Assembly: GCF_008386235.1 (NCBI RefSeq)
Contig: NZ_CP040671.1
Coordinates: 1,986,001 to 2,050,000, forward strand
Origin: Thermosynechococcus sp. CL-1
Lineage (GTDB): Bacteria > Cyanobacteriota > Cyanobacteriia > Thermosynechococcales > Thermosynechococcaceae
Direction of reading: 5' to 3'
Length of the DNA stretch: 64,000 bases
The translations under genes and the position numbers were made by a program. The notes under the pieces are model-generated. The model was not told the DNA's origin. It ran no database searches and saw nothing but the letters and a program-made list of their open reading frames with translations. Of the stretch, positions 14,072 through 41,300 are shown one piece after another. Each line of letters begins with the position of its first letter. Within the stretch, counting starts at the first letter, position 1.

Positions 14072-14288
14072 TAGTACCCGTATCAACTGCAAGGGGGACG
14101 ATGAGACTTTCAAAGTCCTACCCACTCAGCACTCACACCCACTATACACTGAGGACTTGAGACCGCCTTTGCGCAAAGGGGCGATCGCGAGGGGAAACCA
14201 TGGCTGTCCATCCTAGGCAGAGCGTTACTTTGGGGGCAGGAGTTGACAAAGGGCAGCATTTTGCGCAATGATAAAATTCTGCTGATTT

Positions 14289-14361
14289 GGGGCTATAGCT
14301 CAGTTGGTAGAGCACTTCAATGGCATTGAAGGGGTCAGCGGTTCGAGTCCGCTTAGCTCCA
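14289..14361 (+). tRNA. tRNA-Ala (anticodon GGC)
   Basis: 73 bases without encoded CCA. The acceptor stem GGGGCTA pairs with TAGCTCC (one G-T), the D arm is AGCTCAGTTGGTAGAGC, the anticodon loop ATGGCAT is closed by CTTCA/TGAAG, and the T arm is GCGGTTCGAGTCCGC. The GGC anticodon reads GCC/GCU alanine codons. It borders the accessory island on its left side. Confidence 0.96.
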
Positions 14362-14586
14362 GTAAAAATGTAAACCATGTTTTTTGTTAGGCGTAGGGGT
14401 GTAGTCAGTATAGGCTGCCACTCCAAATCAGCACCGCAATGAACCATGGCACTCGCAAAGGAAACCGAACGGGCGATCGCATCCACCCGCAACAAGGAGC
14501 GTTTAATCCTCCCTTCCAGACCGACCCACCGGCCGACCAGTTGTCCATGGGGCGAAATTGAGGTTTGACTTCCATGTTGGCGAGCG

Positions 14587-15243
14587 ATGAGAACAATGAC
14601 AAAATCCAGACAGCGGGTGGTGGATTACGGTGAGGTTCTAACACCGCCGCCCATCGTCAACGCCATGCTCGATCTAGTCAAGCAGGAGACCGAGCGGATT
14701 GATTCGCGCTTTCTTGAGCCTGCATGCGGTACGGGGAATTTTCTCATCGAGATTTTGCACCGGAAACTGCGCGTGGTGGAAACGCGCTATGTCAAGGTTC
14801 AACTGGAGTGGGAGCGCTACGCTATCCTAGCGGTGTCGTCACTCTATGGCATTGACATTCTGGCAGACAACGTAGAGGAATGCCGGCAACGCTTGTTTGC
14901 CGTTTTTGATGAAGCCTACACGCGGCTTTTCAAAGACAAGATCAAAGCGCCCTGCCGGGAAACGGTGCGCTATATCCTCAGCAAAAATATTGTTCATGGC
15001 GACGCGCTGACCTTGAAAACCGTAGGGGAAAACCCGCAGCCGATTATTTTCCCAGAGTGGTCACTGGTGAGTGGCAGCCTGCTCAAGCGGCGGGACTTTG
15101 CCTTCCATGAACTGGTGAACCAAGGGGCGATGCGAGAGTTGCCGCTCTTTTCAGATGCTGGTGAGGAGGTGTTCATCCCCGAACCGGTCAAAGACTATCC
15201 GCCGGTGCATTTCCTAGAGGTTCCCCATGCCTATGATGACTAA
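14587..15243 (+). CDS. Small N6-adenine DNA methylase-like subunit (SAM-binding part)
   Basis: 218 residues. It contains a DNA-methylase motif [16 protein letters not shown], preceded by [15 protein letters not shown], the motif X region of gamma-class adenine methylases, and [19 protein letters not shown] as motif II. I find no NPPY motif IV, so by itself it appears unable to methylate; it may pair with the next gene, whose start it overlaps by 17 bases. First gene of a four-gene tandem that ends at 20286. Base use is typical of a foreign segment: few HIP1 sites. A remnant of a larger methylase is another possibility. Confidence 0.75.
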
Positions 15244-16774
15244 CCACAACCCCGACGTGCTCTTGTGCCTAGCCAACCTCTCCAGCGACGAGGTCTTTAC
15301 GCCGCCGCAACTGGCCAACCAGATGCTGGATTTGCTGCCGGCTGATCTCTGGCGCAACCCAGAGGCTCGCTTTCTCGACCCGGCCTGCAAGTCTGGGGTG
15401 TTCTTGCGCGAGATCGCCAAGCGGCTGGACAAGGGCTTGGAAACCCAAATCCCCGATCGCCAAGCGCGCATCAACCACATCATGACCCGCCAGCTTTATG
15501 GGATTGCCATCACCGAACTGACGGCGCTCATCGCGCGGCGCACCCTCTACTGCTCCAAGACCGCCAACGGCCCGTATTCGGTGTGCACGGCCTTCGACAC
15601 CCCGGAGGGCAACATTCGCTACCGGCGCACCGAGCACACCTGGCGAAACGGCCGCTGCCTCTTCTGCGGCGCCAATGAAGAAAATTACGCCCGCAGCGAG
15701 GAACTGGAAACCCACGCCTATGAATTCATTCACACCGAAAACCCAGAGGAGATTTTTAACATGAAATTCGATGTCATCATCGGCAACCCGCCGTATCAGT
15801 TGAGTGATGGAGGATTTGGCAGAAGCGCTTCACCTATCTATCACCATTTTGTCAGGCAGGCTAAGAAGCTCAATCCACGCTATCTTGTTATGATTATTCC
15901 AGCACGATGGTATTCTGGCGGTAAGGGGCTTGATGAATTCCGAGAAGAGACGCTCAATGACAGTCGTTTTCGTGAAATTCATGATTTTCCAGATGCTTCC
16001 GATGTATTTCCCGGAGTTCAAATCAAAGGTGGCGTCTGTTATTTCCTCTGGGATCGCGATCATGCTGGGCTGTGTAGAGTATCAAACTACTTATCAGGAA
16101 GTGTCTCAACATTGGAACGTCCATTGCTCGAACCCGCGGCGGATACTTTCATTCGTTACAACCAAGCTATTTCCGTACTGCACAAAGTAAGAAAGTTCAA
16201 TGAGCCTTCAATAAAAGACATTGTAAGCTCCAGTAAACCCTTTGGTTTCCGCACATTTTTTCTTGGCAAGCCTAAATCATTTCCTGGTGCAGTCAAGCTT
16301 TACCAGAACGGTGGCGTTGGTTGGGTGAGTCGGGAAGATATAAATGTTGGACAAGATGTAATCGATAAATACAAAGTCTTTATTCCAAGATTAGGCAGTG
16401 GTAGCGATAGTTTTCCACATCCTATTCTTGGACAGCCTTTTTTAGGAGAGCCTAATTCTGTTTGTACGGAGACATATCTATATATTGGGCCATTTGACTG
16501 CAAAGAGACTGCTGTTAATCTCATTTCTTACATTTCAACTCGGTTTTTCCGGTTCTTGGTATTGCTAATAAAGAGTACACAAGACGCAACCAGACGTGTC
16601 TATTACTTTGTTCCCATGCAAGACTTTAGCAAGCCGTGGACGGATGAAGAGCTCTACCAAAAGTACGGCTTGACTGAGGAGGAAATCGCCTTCATCGAAT
16701 CCATGGTCCGTCCGATGCCAGCCGATGACGAAAACGGCGCAGGGAACGAAGAAATGGAGACTGCCGATGAGTAG
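15227..16774 (+). CDS. Eco57I-type N6-adenine DNA methyltransferase
   Basis: 515 residues. Motif X is [14 protein letters not shown], motif [16 protein letters not shown] (Lys where Gly-Thr is usual), and the catalytic motif IV is [14 protein letters not shown] pair of Cys (CLFCGA) occurs in a short insert around residue 145. The C-terminal half ([17 protein letters not shown] and later) resembles the target-recognition part of Eco57I/type IIG and type I-like methylases. It overlaps the genes on both sides (17 and 8 bases), so expression is coupled. It is probably the modification enzyme that protects host DNA in this restriction-like system. The recognition site cannot be read from sequence. 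Confidence 0.85.
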
Positions 16775-17780
16775 CCATCTTGCACCAAACCCCTATGAGC
16801 AGTTAAAAACGCAAATTGGTGAACTGCTCCGTCAGGGCCGGATTCAGGCGGGCCGGGCCATCAATACAATTCTTGTGCAGACCTACTGGCAGATCGGGCG
16901 GCACATTGTAGAGTTCGAACAAAAAGGAAACATCAAAGCCGAGTACGGCAGCGAACTGCTCGACCGGCTGTCAAAAGACCTGACCGCGGAATTCGGCAAG
17001 GGGTTTAGCCGCTCAAATCTTTTCCAGATTCGACAATTTTATCTCAAGTTTCCAAAAATCCAGACACTGTCTGGACAATTAAGCTGGAGTCACTATGTCG
17101 AAATTATAAAAGCAGACAGTGACCTTGAAATCAGTTTTTATGCCAAGCAATGCGAGAAAGAGGGCTGGAGCGTGCGTGAATTGAAGCGGCAGATGAAAAG
17201 CATGCTCTTTCATCGTCTTGCCTTGAGCAAAGACAAGCCTGGCGTACTGGAAATTGCTCAAAAGGGCAGCGAGGTTCAGCATGCCGAAGACCTGATTAAA
17301 GACCCCTATGTGTTTGAATTTCTTGGCATTCCACCCCAACACCAATATCTGGAAGGCGAACTGGAGCAAAGGCTTATCCAAAACCTGGAGTTATTCCTGC
17401 TGGAGTTGGGCAAGGGATTTGCCTTTGTGGGCAGGCAATACAAAATCACGCTGTCAAACCGCCATTTTTATGTGGATCTGGTTTTTTATCACCGCATACT
17501 CAAGTGCTTTGTGCTGATCGACCTCAAGCGCGGCGAAATCGAGCACACCGACATCGGGCAGATGAACATGTATCTGAATTATTTTGCCAAAGAGGAAAAT
17601 GTCGAAGGGGATAACCCGCCCATCGGCATCGTGCTTGGAGCCTACAAAGACCATATCCTCGTGGAATATGCTACCCAAAACATCAGCAATAAACTCTTCG
17701 TGAGCAAATATCAGCTTTATTTGCCAGACAAAAAACAATTGCAGGAAGAATTGGAGAGGCTTTTGACCCATGACGCATAA
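16767..17780 (+). CDS. DUF1016 / YhcG-family PD-(D/E)XK nuclease
   Basis: 337 residues from the ATG at 16767. The N-terminal DUF1016 domain includes [15 protein letters not shown] and [16 protein letters not shown]. The C-terminal nuclease domain starts about residue 190 with DPYVFEFLG and shows the fold motifs [18 protein letters not shown] and [14 protein letters not shown], where D, D and K give the catalytic set. Such proteins are frequent passengers of restriction-modification loci. It overlaps the methylase by 8 bases and the helicase by 11. In this system it could be the restriction nuclease or an accessory one (inference). Confidence 0.88.
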
Positions 17781-20286
17781 AGATTTCTTTCCTCAACGCC
17801 CCAAAATCGAGCCGAAAATCTACGCCTACGAGGATACGAATCCCCAATATGCGGGTCTGCTCAAGGTCGGCTACACCACCCAAAGCGCACAGCAACGGGT
17901 AGCGCAGCAGTATCCCACACTGCGCCCTGGCGAGAAGCCCTACCGCATCGTGCTGGAGGAGCTGGCCATCCGCAAGGACGGCACGGGCTTTACTGACCAC
18001 GAGGTGCACCGCATGTTGCGCATCAATGGCGTTCAGCAGGCCGGCGGCGAGTGGTTCCGCTGCACCGTGGAGCAGGTGAAAGCGGCCATCAACGCCGTGC
18101 GGGCAGGTCAATTGATGGAAGAACAGCGATCGCAGAGCTTCTCCATGCGGCCAGAGCAGGAAGCAGCGGTGGAAAAGACCATGGCTTACTTCAAGAACTA
18201 CCGTCGGGAAAACCATAAGCCCCCGCACTTCCTGTGGAACTGCAAGATGCGCTTTGGCAAGACCTTCGCCGCCTATCAGCTTGCCAAGCGAATGGGCTGG
18301 CGCAAAATCTTGGTGCTCACCTTCAAGCCGGCGGTGCAAAGCGCTTGGGAAGAGGATTTGCGCAGCCATGTGGATTTTCAGGGCTGGCAGTTCATCAAAC
18401 CCGGCGGCCTCACCTACGAACAGGCAGATAAAAATAAGCCTGTTGTTTGCTTTGGCTCATTTCAGGATTACTTAGGGCGCAATCCGAGCACGAACGGGAT
18501 TAAGACGAAAAACGAATGGGTCCACGCTACCCATTGGGACTGCGTGATGTTCGATGAATATCACTTCGGCGCCTGGCGTGAGAAGGCCAAAGACCTTTTT
18601 GAATCCGAAGACGAACAGGAACGCAAAGCTGCGGAAGGCGAAGCCATCGACTACTTTGATGAAGACATTTTGCCCATCACCGCGGATCACTATCTGTATC
18701 TTTCCGGCACACCGTTCCGAGCCATTGCCACCGGCGAATTCATCGAAGAGCAGATCTACAACTGGACCTATTCCGACGAACAGCGAGCCAAAGCCGAATG
18801 GCAAGGGTCTTCCGAAGACAACCCCTATCGCGCTTTGCCACGTATGGTGCTCTTGACCTATCAACTGCCCGATGACATTCGTCAAGTGGCGATGCAAGGT
18901 GAGTTCAGCGAGTTCGACCTGAATGTGTTTTTCTCTGCCGAAGGCGTGGGCAATGAAGCGCGCTTCAAGTATGAAGACGAGGTGCAAAAATGGCTTGACT
19001 TGATTCGTGGTGCACATTTACCAACGAGTTTAGACAACTTGCGTTTGGGTGCGCAAAAACCGCCGCTGCCTTTCTCGGATGTGCGGCTGTTGAATGTGCT
19101 CTCGCATACCCTGTGGTTCTTGCCCAGCGTTGCCTCTTGCTACGCTATGCAAAATCTGCTGGCAAAGAGCCAAAATAAATTCTACCAAGATTACAAAGTC
19201 ATCGTTGCTGCCGGTGCAGCCGCGGGTATTGGGGTCAATGCGTTACGGCCAGTTCTGGAGGCAATGGACGATCCGCTGAAGAGCAAAACCATCACCCTCA
19301 CCTGCGGCAAGCTCACCACCGGCGTGACGGTGCGCCCCTGGACGGGTATTTTCATGCTGCGCAACACCTCCAGCCCGGAGACCTACTTTCAGGCCGCCTT
19401 TCGCGTGCAAAGCCCTTGGACCCTCAATAATCCCGACGGTGTTTCGCCCAATGAGGAGCTGATCCTCAAAGAGGAGTGCTACGTCTTCGATTTTGCACCG
19501 GATCGGGCCTTGCGCCAGATTGCCGACTACAGTTGCCGCCTCAACGTCAACGGGGAAGACCCAGAAAAGAAGGTGGCAGAATTTATCCAATTTTTGCCGG
19601 TGTTGGCCTACGACGGCAGTTCCATGAGGCAGATTGACGCCGCCGGTGTGCTCGATATGGCGATGGCCGGTACCACGGCAACCCTGTTGGCCCGCCGCTG
19701 GGAAAGCGCGCTACTGGTGAACGTGGACGACGACACCCTGCGGCGGTTGATGAACAATAAAGAGGCGATGCAGGCTCTCATGCGCATCGAGGGGTTTCGC
19801 AATCTCAATCAGGAGATCGAAACCATCATCAACAAATCTGAAGCGGTCAAGAAGGCGAAGAAAGAGGCAAATGACCAGAAACTTTCCTCTCAAGAGAAAA
19901 AGCAGCTCACGGAAGAAGAAAAGGAATTCAAGAGCAAGCGCAAGCAAATTCAGGAAAAACTTATCAAGCTTGCCACCCGCATCCCCATTTTCATGTACCT
20001 GACCGATTACCGAGAACGAACCCTGCGGGATGTGATCACGCAACTGGAGCCTGGGTTGTTCAAGAAGGTCACAGGGTTGACGGTCAAAGACTTTGAACTG
20101 CTCGTCAGCCTAGGGGTGTTCAACAGTGCTCTGATGAACGATGCGGTGTATAAGTTCAAAAGATATGAAGACCCGAGCTTGGCCTATACAGGGATCAATA
20201 AGCATGAAGGGGAAGACATCGGCTTGTATGATACCGTCCTCCGTCGCGGAAACTGCCCCTCATCCCTGCCCGAAGTAAGCATTTAG
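17770..20286 (+). CDS. GIY-YIG-type nuclease domain fused to SF2 helicase
   Basis: 838 residues. The first 110 or so look like a GIY-YIG/T5orf172-type domain: IYAYEDTNPQYAGLLKVGYT, then RVAQQYP and a late GGEWFRC. Then comes a superfamily 2 ATPase with Walker A CKMRFGKTFAAYQLA, motif II MFDEYHFG, motif III LYLSGTPFRA and a motif VI-like ETYFQAAFRVQSPW. A charged coiled coil (about residues 690-735, Lys/Glu rich) separates the C-terminal part. Probably the translocating restriction subunit that works with the methylase and the DUF1016 nuclease (inference). The last dozen residues, ending RRGNCPSSLPEVSI, abut an hsdM relic and may have been changed by rearrangement. Confidence 0.82.
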   Translation: MTHKDFFPQRPKIEPKIYAYEDTNPQYAGLLKVGYTTQSAQQRVAQQYPTLRPGEKPYRIVLEELAIRKDGTGFTDHEVHRMLRINGVQQAGGEWFRCTVEQVKAAINAVRAGQLMEEQRSQSFSMRPEQEAAVEKTMAYFKNYRRENHKPPHFLWNCKMRFGKTFAAYQLAKRMGWRKILVLTFKPAVQSAWEEDLRSHVDFQGWQFIKPGGLTYEQADKNKPVVCFGSFQDYLGRNPSTNGIKTKNEWVHATHWDCVMFDEYHFGAWREKAKDLFESEDEQERKAAEGEAIDYFDEDILPITADHYLYLSGTPFRAIATGEFIEEQIYNWTYSDEQRAKAEWQGSSEDNPYRALPRMVLLTYQLPDDIRQVAMQGEFSEFDLNVFFSAEGVGNEARFKYEDEVQKWLDLIRGAHLPTSLDNLRLGAQKPPLPFSDVRLLNVLSHTLWFLPSVASCYAMQNLLAKSQNKFYQDYKVIVAAGAAAGIGVNALRPVLEAMDDPLKSKTITLTCGKLTTGVTVRPWTGIFMLRNTSSPETYFQAAFRVQSPWTLNNPDGVSPNEELILKEECYVFDFAPDRALRQIADYSCRLNVNGEDPEKKVAEFIQFLPVLAYDGSSMRQIDAAGVLDMAMAGTTATLLARRWESALLVNVDDDTLRRLMNNKEAMQALMRIEGFRNLNQEIETIINKSEAVKKAKKEANDQKLSSQEKKQLTEEEKEFKSKRKQIQEKLIKLATRIPIFMYLTDYRERTLRDVITQLEPGLFKKVTGLTVKDFELLVSLGVFNSALMNDAVYKFKRYEDPSLAYTGINKHEGEDIGLYDTVLRRGNCPSSLPEVSI

Positions 20287-20301
20287 AGGGATTGATTCAG
20301 A

Positions 20302-20672
20302 ATTGAGCGCTTGCTGGCGCAGTTCGAATACCACATCAAGCTCTATGAGACGCTCTTTATCCAGCACATGATGAATGCCCTGCGCCCCGCTGAGCGCGCC
20401 GCTGTGGTACTCAAGGAAGGGCTGCTGTTTGACTCCATTTGACTCCAAGAAGATGCTGCGCCATATCTGCTGCAAGCTTGTGGAACAGTTCGAGATCCTA
20501 GCGGTCATCAGCCTGCCCAACGGCGTCGTGGGCAACGATAGACCAGATTCGCGCGATCGACGACAACCCGACCGCACGCCGCTACTGCCGGCACCAAGCC
20601 GAGGCCGTCGAGCACGAAAAGCCGGAGGTGCTCATCAATCGCCTGCTGGAGCTAGAGGAGGAAATATACTGA
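20302..20672 (+). pseudogene. Relic of a type I restriction HsdM-like methylase, frameshifted
   Basis: No single frame is open, but three consecutive pieces in two or more frames read as one HsdM-like protein. Piece one (to a TGA at 20440) has YETLFIQHMMNALRPAERAA and VVLKEGLLFDS; piece two has KLVEQFEILAVISLPNGVV, the classic HsdM strand and loop; piece three ends RRYCRHQAEAVEHEKPEV and LLELEEEIY before a TGA at 20670. Duplicated GACTCCA near 20431-20447 marks one frameshift. It fills the 508-base gap between the helicase gene and the next gene. No function is expected. Confidence 0.7.
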
Positions 20673-20794
20673 AGACCTGCGCCAGCTTCTGGCGATGGTA
20701 TCGGGAAATAATTTTGTCAGCAGTTCACAACGCTCGATAAATGCTTAATGATAAATGCTTAATAAATTAGCCTAGTCATGAGGAGGTGCGCACC

Positions 20795-21781
20795 ATGAAC
20801 GGGAAAACTTCACTATTGACCCTGATTTTAGAAGGCAGGTTTGTCCGCTCAGGTCGAATAGCTGTTTCACAGCTTTCAGAGCTTTTGTCGAGCCTTCAAA
20901 AAGTCTTTTACCGCACCGGCCAAGTGCTCTTAGGCGAAACCGATAGTATTCGCAAAGGACCCAAGTCGAAACAGCTCAAGCAGCTTCTGGAATTAGACCT
21001 TATTGAGATTAACCACGGAAGCCCATCAACCCTACTCCGCTTCGACAGGCGAGCTGAACCAAGCTTGTTCCCCGAAGAGGATTTTTTACTTCACATCTTA
21101 GAGACTGCTCTTACAGGCATACGCGAAGTCCAAGAGCCGGCTGATGTCCTTCCTCGTGGATTTGATCGGGGAGTCTTACTTGCATGGCGTGATGTCGGCA
21201 GGCTTTTCCAGAAAGAAGTATATTCAATAACTTTTGAACTCAATCATCGTCCAAGTCCGCTACGGGTTCAGTACACCCCCCAAGCGTTCCAGGTAATCCA
21301 GCAGCGGATTCAGGGACCCAAAACTCACCTCACCACCATTGAAGGCCGCTTGCTTATGGCGGACTTCAAAGAAGAAGGTATGCGGTTACGGGTTCATCCT
21401 CCTGTTGGTGATCCAGTCGTATGCGTGTTCGATGAGGAGCAAAAGGAAGAGGTACTTGAGAATCTTCTGCGTCGCGTCCGCATAATCGGTGAAGCACTCA
21501 GCGATCCTGAGACCGGCAAGATTAACCGAGTGCGTATCCACGACATCGAACCTTTAGAGGAACTCACGGAGGCGATAGAGGAAATTCCGCTCGCTCCAGC
21601 AGAAGTTTATGATTTCTGGACTTCAAGAACACTGAAAGAACTTGCCCAAATGCAGGGCGTCCAGCCTGTAGCTAATCTTGCTACTTTATATGGCACTTGG
21701 CCCGGCGAACGCAACGATGGCTTTGAGGAGTTTATTCAAGAATTGCGACAAGGCAATGTCATCGGGAGGCATGGCTCGTGA
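20795..21781 (+). CDS. Unrecognised protein coupled to a PIN-domain toxin
   Basis: 328 residues from the ATG at 20795, which follows AGGAGG by eight bases. I do not recognise the family. It begins with TLILEGRFVRSGRIAVSQLSELL, is rich in charged residues, has no predicted membrane helix, and ends with a segment FWTSRTLKELAQMQGVQPVANL resembling the short 'LxELAxxQGVxP' end that occurs before PIN toxins, where a small antitoxin tail is expected. Its stop overlaps the GTG of the PIN gene (GTGA), so the two are translated together. It could be a large antitoxin or a DNA-binding partner; both are inference. Confidence 0.6.
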   Translation: MNGKTSLLTLILEGRFVRSGRIAVSQLSELLSSLQKVFYRTGQVLLGETDSIRKGPKSKQLKQLLELDLIEINHGSPSTLLRFDRRAEPSLFPEEDFLLHILETALTGIREVQEPADVLPRGFDRGVLLAWRDVGRLFQKEVYSITFELNHRPSPLRVQYTPQAFQVIQQRIQGPKTHLTTIEGRLLMADFKEEGMRLRVHPPVGDPVVCVFDEEQKEEVLENLLRRVRIIGEALSDPETGKINRVRIHDIEPLEELTEAIEEIPLAPAEVYDFWTSRTLKELAQMQGVQPVANLATLYGTWPGERNDGFEEFIQELRQGNVIGRHGS

Positions 21782-22197
21782 CATCCGCCTATCTGCTCTT
21801 GGATACTAACATTCTCTCGTACATCATGAAAGGTGCGCCAGAGGCGAGGCTTTATGAGAATCATCTCTTCGGCACAACCTTGGCGATTTCCTTCATCACT
21901 GTTGGCGAACTTTGGGCAGGGGCAGAATACGCTGGGTGGGGAGAGCAGAAGCGAAAGAAGCTTGAGAGCGTGCTCCGTAACTTTGTGGTGATTCCTTATG
22001 ACTACGAAATCGCAAAAAGGTACGGCGAGATTGTTGCAGGACGAAAGCGTATCGGTAAGCCGATTTCCTTTGCCGATGCTTGGATCGCTGCTTGTGCGCT
22101 GTGCTATCAGGTGCCGCTCGTTACTCATAACGAGAAAGACTTCCAGAATATACCCAACCTTTCCGTAATCACACAGCAAGGTGGTCAGACACCATGA
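21778..22197 (+). CDS. vapC: PIN-domain ribonuclease toxin, VapC-like
   Basis: 139 residues. The PIN fold is clear: LLLDTNILSYIM gives the first catalytic Asp, SFITVGELWAG the Glu, FADAWIAACAL the second and third acidic positions, and THNEKDFQNIPNL the last. VapC toxins cleave tRNA or rRNA and are held inactive by an antitoxin from the gene before. Here the preceding gene is far longer (328 residues) than usual antitoxins. Start is GTG overlapping the upstream stop. Confidence 0.85.
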   Translation: MTSAYLLLDTNILSYIMKGAPEARLYENHLFGTTLAISFITVGELWAGAEYAGWGEQKRKKLESVLRNFVVIPYDYEIAKRYGEIVAGRKRIGKPISFADAWIAACALCYQVPLVTHNEKDFQNIPNLSVITQQGGQTP

Positions 22198-22217
22198 CCA
22201 CGTTTGCCATCACATAA

Positions 22218-22283
22218 TGCACCAATTCATCCGAAAAGGGCGATTCAGGCAGTGGTGAAAGCAGCGGGTCACGAAGTGTTATT
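22218..22283 (+). mobile_element. IS630-family transposase fragment (relic)
   Basis: 66 bases that match bases 60202-60267 of the second IS630 relic with five differences and no gaps. They code for part of the transposase (HPKGAIQAVVKAAGHEV in the other copy). The match stops abruptly at 22283, inside the last codons of rluD, so the old insertion or a later deletion joined island and rluD here. It marks the right edge of the accessory island. Confidence 0.8.
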
Positions 22284-41045: not shown

Positions 41046-41164
41046 ATTTAACCGCGGCGCAACAGTCTGGGAAAGTTTTTATTAAGATTTTCTATTCACT
41101 TCATAGAAGAACTTCTCTTGAATCCCCCAAGAGGCCTATGCTACGTTGAGTAGCAATTTATCTT

Positions 41165-41300
41165 TTTATGCCTAATCTGAGCCTTGGCAGCTTGGAGCGG
41201 AGGAACCAACGAATCAGGGGCGCATTCTCCACCGAGAAAGGATACCACTGAATCCTAGCCCGTCAGCTAACTTCGTCGGCATTCAGTTGGAGACTGGCTG
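41165..41300 (+). promoter_or_regulatory. c-di-AMP riboswitch (ydaO/yuaA class)
   Basis: In a 339-base gap before the transporter gene. Conserved blocks in the right order: GGAGCGGAGGAACCAA at 41194-41209, GGGGCGCAT at 41217-41225, GAATCCTAGCC at 41250-41260 and GTCAGCTAACTTCGTCGG at 41262-41279. These agree with the ydaO/yuaA consensus as I remember it. Downstream, TTCGGT and ACCGAA can form a hairpin that ends shortly before the gene and might be the expression platform. The exact ends of the element are estimates. Confidence 0.82.

Follow-up and report, generated by a model that had tools for sequence, protein, structure and literature searches.

The four genes at positions 14587–20286 of the window (the whole 64,000-nucleotide stretch analysed here, bases 1,986,001–2,050,000 of a 2.65-Mb genome assembled as one contig) most probably form a DrdVI-family restriction-modification system that carries one accessory nuclease and works by the mechanism set out below, a reading to which we give a probability of about 0.72. 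Its core consists of two methylase genes, M1 and M2, and a gene for a nuclease fused to a translocase, R. The accessory gene, coding for a DUF1016/YhcG nuclease, lies between M2 and R.

Four intact overlapping genes in an accessory insertion

All four genes lie on the + strand and overlap by 17, 8 and 11 bases, as the preliminary description had it, and inspection of the open reading frames found no internal stop in any of them. M1 (14587–15243, + strand, 218 aa) encodes the cofactor-binding half of a gamma-type N6-adenine methylase and matches the Pfam family MmeI_Mtase at 6e-8. The small methylase with motif I and no NPPY that had been proposed was confirmed in this gene, and we take GEVLTPP, YGID and HGD to be its motifs X, II and III. 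M2 (15227–16774, + strand, 515 aa) is an Eco57I-type methylase with a target-recognition part and an NPPY motif at residues 187–190, in line with the full Eco57I-like methylase claimed earlier (Pfam Eco57I PF07669, 8.4e-40). Its N-half (residues 1–175; 15227–15751, + strand) is a degenerate cofactor half, for which we propose a role in coupling to R; the motif II position presumably reads YGIA, and C144xxC147 is present.

The third gene (16767–17780, + strand, 337 aa) is indeed a DUF1016/YhcG PD-(D/E)XK nuclease gene, with both DUF1016_N (6e-49) and YhcG_C (2.5e-60) in Pfam and a D...(D/E)xK arrangement in which D237 and K254 (numbered from 16767) are invariant across 9 aligned sequences. PADLOC model PDC-S02 matches the protein at 1.5e-141. 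The gene probably starts with the ATG at 16767; the mechanical open reading frame begins at 16725 (351 aa). R (17770–20286, + strand, 838 aa) joins an N-terminal T5orf172 GIY-YIG nuclease (residues 18–110) to an SF2 translocase, the fusion that the preliminary description had recognised (Pfam T5orf172 6e-11, MUG113 6e-7 and ResIII 5e-6). Residues Y18, R43 and E94 are invariant across 19 aligned sequences, and we take MRFGKT, DEYH, SGTP and QAAFRVQ to be the SF2 motifs. No target-recognition domain was found in R by profile scan, and none of the four proteins scored above a curated NCBIfam cut-off. When sequences were searched against solved structures, the R, M2 and DUF1016 queries gave no match at the limits used, and the match of M1 was limited to 57 residues of a type I M subunit. 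The promoter scan (6 found against 5.0 expected) and the terminator scan (8 against 8.1) stayed at chance level, so the claim that the genes form one unit depends on their overlaps and on conservation.

The genes belong to an accessory insertion of 7.9 kb (approximately 14363–22283) located behind tRNA-Ala(ggc) (14288–14362, + strand), which marks its left edge. In six genomes of the same genus, a PrsW/FHA gene, tRNA-Ala(ggc) and a pseudouridine-synthase gene adjoin and represent the empty site, with 263–736 bp separating the two protein genes in these relatives versus 8.1 kb in the window. No convincing direct repeats flank the insertion. Besides the four genes, it contains a type I hsdM relic (20292–20690), in which three stretches, lying in different frames, match PADLOC MTase_I PDLC03021 in order, and a VapC-like pair (20786–22197). 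In this pair the gene of a 331-aa protein, to which Pfam, NCBIfam and PADLOC assign no family at a significant level, shares 4 bases with that of a VapC-like PIN protein, and the two are possibly an unusual toxin-antitoxin pair. Elsewhere in the window, a c-di-AMP riboswitch (RF00379) was detected at gathering level at 41159–41296.

One could argue that the cluster no longer functions and is decaying within a defence island, given that the hsdM relic lies directly downstream, that M1 fragments occur elsewhere in the same genome, and that, of 11 same-genus genomes, 4 give only partial R matches (one of these four being a 220-contig assembly). We consider this improbable, since none of the four open reading frames is truncated, their domain matches are nearly complete and their catalytic residues are conserved. 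A second, broken M1 copy (L057) is located at G000:C1:931744-932045 of the window's genome.

The core belongs to the DrdVI/MaeIV family

The plasmid pDrdVI of Deinococcus carries three genes in the same order, and their products are 44% (M1), 52% (M2) and 57% (R) identical to those of the window over nearly their full length; the difference is that pDrdVI has no DUF1016 gene between M2 and R. A tblastn search against plasmids recovered the M1-M2-R order on pDrdVI and on Rhizobium, Sphingopyxis and Acuticoccus plasmids, all of them without DUF1016. Lactococcus and Enterococcus plasmids carry R-M2 fusions behind M1. Likewise, the PADLOC model PDLC03626 spans R and M2 as a single chain. From the genes shared with pDrdVI, the PDLC03626 match and the plasmid fusions, it follows that the core is of a known kind: with M1, M2 and a fused GIY-YIG/translocase R in DrdVI-type order, it is, on gene order and sequence identity, a further member of the DrdVI/MaeIV split-methylase family. 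The idea of a split methylase within a restriction-modification-like unit was thus borne out. The gene order had also been thought to differ from known types, a view that must be given up for three of the four genes, because the core M1-M2-R falls into this catalogued family.

The M1-M2-R order was found in many phyla. Scanning genome contigs with R gave at least 583 confirmed stretches, mostly bacterial, and the 80 best of these made up our set of loci (one archaeal genome among these 80). M1 was present on the same strand and within 7.5 kb in 118 of the 119 distinct R-carrying loci having at least 1.5 kb of sequence upstream of the catalytic half.

For two members, methylation has been published (PMC6430315, PMC10113651). 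M1-2.DrdVI, encoded on pDrdVI of Deinococcus wulumuqiensis NEB 479, produces m6A at GCAGCC and its genes have been cloned in E. coli (PMC6430315); that report concerns methylation, and cleavage by DrdVI is putative. For MaeIV of Methanococcus aeolicus (GCACY, m6A by M1-M2.MaeIV), the authors describe a split methylase and restriction-modification system similar to DrdVI (PMC10113651); our comparison with MaeIV is by description.

Methylase motifs are divided between M1 and M2

Conserved motifs are distributed between the two methylase proteins in a complementary manner. Motif I (E-P..G.G) and the motif II acid are kept in 135 of 135 M1 rows and NPPY in 0 of 135, while NPPY is found in 120 of 120 M2 rows, in all of which the first motif I Gly is replaced by Lys; the motif II acid is found in 0 of 120 and a CxxC appears in M2. 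For these counts, rows with fewer than 150 (M1) or 400 (M2) aligned residues were dropped, leaving 135 of 164 and 120 of 140; they include related rows and near-identical contigs, and L043 was dropped as lying on the same contig as L087. At the K-[ST]-G site, L246 reads KSG and L281 reads KNG by eye, and the R-M2 fusion L038 reads AKSG. A clade of fused R-M2 proteins (L035, L276, L277, L288, L297, L299 and L302) has kept K-[ST]-G and lost the rest of motif I.

Reduced methylases from loci without R show which parts of the enzyme are dispensable. In L055, L173 and L181 the M1 half is joined directly to the catalytic half of M2, and in L209, L217 and L169 the split falls exactly ahead of the NPPY strand. 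In the Tenacibaculum phage PTm1, the catalytic half is a single gene with a weakly M1-like gene nearby. An alignment query was better at recovering further reduced forms than single-protein scans, which gave only the query contigs. An AlphaFold model of the L181 fusion shows one methylase (pLDDT 88.2, pTM 0.84) whose best fold match is CamA (Z 23.6, rmsd 4.9, 418 aligned residues), with matches also to DrdV and LlaGI. We therefore read M1 plus the C-terminal half of M2 as the methylase, in which case the two proteins would form a heterodimer.

The alternative is that M2 suffices as a methylase, binding SAM in spite of its substitutions, with M1 as a SAM-bound regulatory or structural pseudo-subunit. 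The AlphaFold2 model of M2 alone (pLDDT 89.0, pTM 0.87; like the L181 model, a single chain) shows a complete methylase fold, closest among solved structures to CamA (Z 22.4) and BrxX (20.0), with LlaGI also among the closest folds. CamA and BREX PglX/BrxX were solved as single-chain methylases. The N-half of M2 is moreover highly conserved and could still serve methylation. Lys in motif I alone does not prove that SAM binding is lost; M.TaqI has Ala at that position, and Lys there need not abolish binding. Against a self-sufficient M2 stand the motif II acid missing and the motif I Lys present in all 120 rows, the fusions and splits in which the M1 half is retained and the M2 N-half is missing, and the near-constant presence of M1 (118 of 119 loci). 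We judge this alternative unlikely, yet leave it appreciable weight because M2 folds as a complete methylase by itself. The motif partition between M1 and M2, including the degenerate cofactor half of M2, is new at the family level, as are the module rearrangements in reduced methylases and phages. In the accessible text of the open-access literature we found no description of this division of motifs.

Two further observations concern M1. Nineteen phage contigs from IMG/VR (L183–L189, L192–L196, L198–L200 and L202–L205) carry an M1-like open reading frame with the SAM half and no NPPY, and no frame of at least 90 aa with NPP[YFW] starts within 600 bp downstream of it; this protein is possibly a decoy or the partner of a distant gene. 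In the same-genus relative G388, M1 is frameshifted (L310:2536-3191), with M2 and R open.

The degenerate half of M2 accompanies R

We then compared the occurrence of R with that of the degenerate N-half. Among 147 distinct loci with a catalytic half (repeats being removed by the first 60 residues of that half), R and the N-half were both present in 130, both absent in 12, and found singly in 5, with the half only in 4 and R only in 1 (Fisher p 1.7e-13, ancestry ignored). As 68 of the 147 loci had been fetched by means of R, we recounted the other 79 and obtained 63 with both, 12 with neither, 4 with the half only and 0 with R only (p 3.6e-11).

The loci with a half and no detected R are L230, L036, L267 and L319. 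In L036, a Tn3/IS insert intervenes and R is 6.8 kb distant; L267 is a remnant; L319 apparently carries a divergent R missed by the profile; and L230 is a genuine exception within its 2.1 kb of downstream sequence. The single R without an N-half, L101, begins 10 bp from a contig end. L036 is the Corynebacterium plasmid pCRULAC2, where the Tn3/IS between M2 and R carries aminoglycoside-resistance genes and the restriction genes are still readable. In the 12 loci with neither, an M1-like half is fused in 5, is a separate nearby gene in 3, and has no same-strand counterpart in 4 (L248, L303 twice, and L305). L248 is a decayed system retaining an R fragment, and L285, which has neither R nor an N-half, ends 161 bp downstream.

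Rearranged loci show the same parts in other orders. The phage record MT835780.1 (L320; marked unverified) has an M1-like gene, a bare catalytic half, R and a degenerate half, in that order; the degenerate half, with its KSG, is on an overlapping frame that continues R and is 46% identical over 317 residues to the R-M2 fusion L038. In L190, likewise a phage locus, R and the N-half share one open reading frame and the catalytic half is on the next, with STAG replacing KSG. Since the N-half accompanies R, is missing from the reduced methylases and stands behind R in some phages, the dead N-half of M2 would appear to couple the methylase to R. Taken further, SAM binding would be on M1, catalysis and target recognition on M2, the duplicated degenerate half (residues 1–175) would act as a clutch to R, and the M2-R junction as a plug-in bay. 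We offer this fuller scheme tentatively and rate its chances at somewhat under even.

DUF1016 is optional cargo of the M2-R gap

Both M2 and R are present in 70 of the 80 loci, more than 250 bp apart in 27. In 7 of the 70 (L076, L085, L087, L102, L105, L110 and L113) the gap from M2 to R contains a DUF1016 gene, and in one (L099) such a gene separates M1 from M2; in L066, where M2 is off the contig, it directly precedes R at the contig edge. The copies in L076, L085 and L087 are broken or partial, and L102:3264-5419 and L113:4828-6996 contain tandem DUF1016 genes of two different subfamilies between M2 and R. A Pfam scan of 61 of the 62 inserted open reading frames (one L076 fragment was left out, and L099 was trimmed at a masked stretch) found DUF1016_N in 9, Bro-N in 6, PDDEXK_3 in 5 and RhuM in 4. 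Eleven of the 12 DUF1016 matches fell in operon gaps (45.8 kb in all) versus one, that of L066, in 630 kb of flanks (p 1.6e-12, ancestry ignored).

Within the genus, 11 genomes were compared: R is full length in 3, gives partial matches in 4 and none in 4. In the two relatives whose R is 87–88% identical to that of the window, the M2-R slot is either empty (G179) or holds a gene for a 316-aa HARE-HTH protein (G388).

Could the locus instead represent a new defence type made up of four genes, with DUF1016 as an obligate subunit that acts together with R? The overlaps of 8–17 bases joining all four genes would fit, as would the rank of DUF1016 as the commonest Pfam family among the inserts and its concentration in operon gaps. 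We nevertheless find this very improbable: most relatives do without the gene, pDrdVI and both close same-genus relatives lack it, the HARE-HTH gene occupies its slot in one of these, and broken or fragmentary copies stand beside a full-length R in L076 and L087. By its distribution, then, DUF1016 is optional cargo, one of several kinds of gene in the M2-R gap. The single unit envisaged in the preliminary description holds for M1-M2-R, whose order recurred when we searched for it across genomes as had been suggested; it does not extend to DUF1016, which is absent from most loci and is not a conserved part. In the portion of the open-access literature available to us, no description of DUF1016 or similar cargo in DrdVI-family restriction operons was found.

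Comparison with other systems

The Type ISP enzymes LlaGI and LlaBIII share with the window system an SF2 motor, a gamma methylase and a target-recognition part, and the M2 model aligns with residues 845–1565 of LlaGI (5ffj_B; Z 19.3, rmsd 5.5, 373 aligned residues) and with LlaBIII (Z 18.6, rmsd 6.1, 381 aligned). The R-M2 fusions on Gram-positive plasmids add to the likeness. Type ISP enzymes have an N-terminal Mrr-type PD-(D/E)XK nuclease on the motor protein, whereas the window system has separate chains, a GIY-YIG nuclease and an extra M1 half. We rejected membership in this type, the genes being separate open reading frames instead of one polypeptide and R starting with T5orf172/GIY-YIG.

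Type I membership was also rejected, as a Pfam scan of the six proteins encoded at 14587–22197 revealed no S-type (HsdS) family. BREX and DISARM were not supported either: among the PADLOC matches listed for these six proteins, both methylases are weakly PglX-like and nothing else is. The non-canonical type I methylase PacII (M1M2S) likewise combines two different M subunits; there, M1 and M2 are described as having separate pockets, for m6A and m4C, and as accompanied by an S subunit (PMC9613975). In the window system, NPPY is missing from one of the chains, and no S subunit showed up when the locus was scanned with Pfam.

Proposed mechanism

In the mechanism that we propose, M1 and M2 would together constitute an m6A methylase: the SAM-binding half would come from M1, and both the catalytic NPPY loop and the recognition of the target from the C-terminal half of M2. 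The site of this methylase would be short and non-palindromic and marked on one strand, as has been reported for DrdVI (GCAGCC) and MaeIV (GCACY). At unmethylated sites R would be recruited to the methylase, probably through the degenerate N-half of M2, and would then move along the DNA by its SF2 motor and cut with its GIY-YIG domain. The motifs of R are conserved, and it is predicted to restrict unmodified DNA. DUF1016 may serve as an interchangeable second nuclease, widening or backing up restriction.

The clutch scheme, in which K-[ST]-G takes the place of G-x-G, would, if true, tie the methylation status of a site to the GIY-YIG/SF2 motor. The pattern of modules makes the reason for the split of the methylase directly testable, and the DUF1016 slot illustrates how restriction operons acquire interchangeable accessory genes. 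With at least 583 stretches, the DrdVI family is widespread, though little described in print, the open-access literature included.
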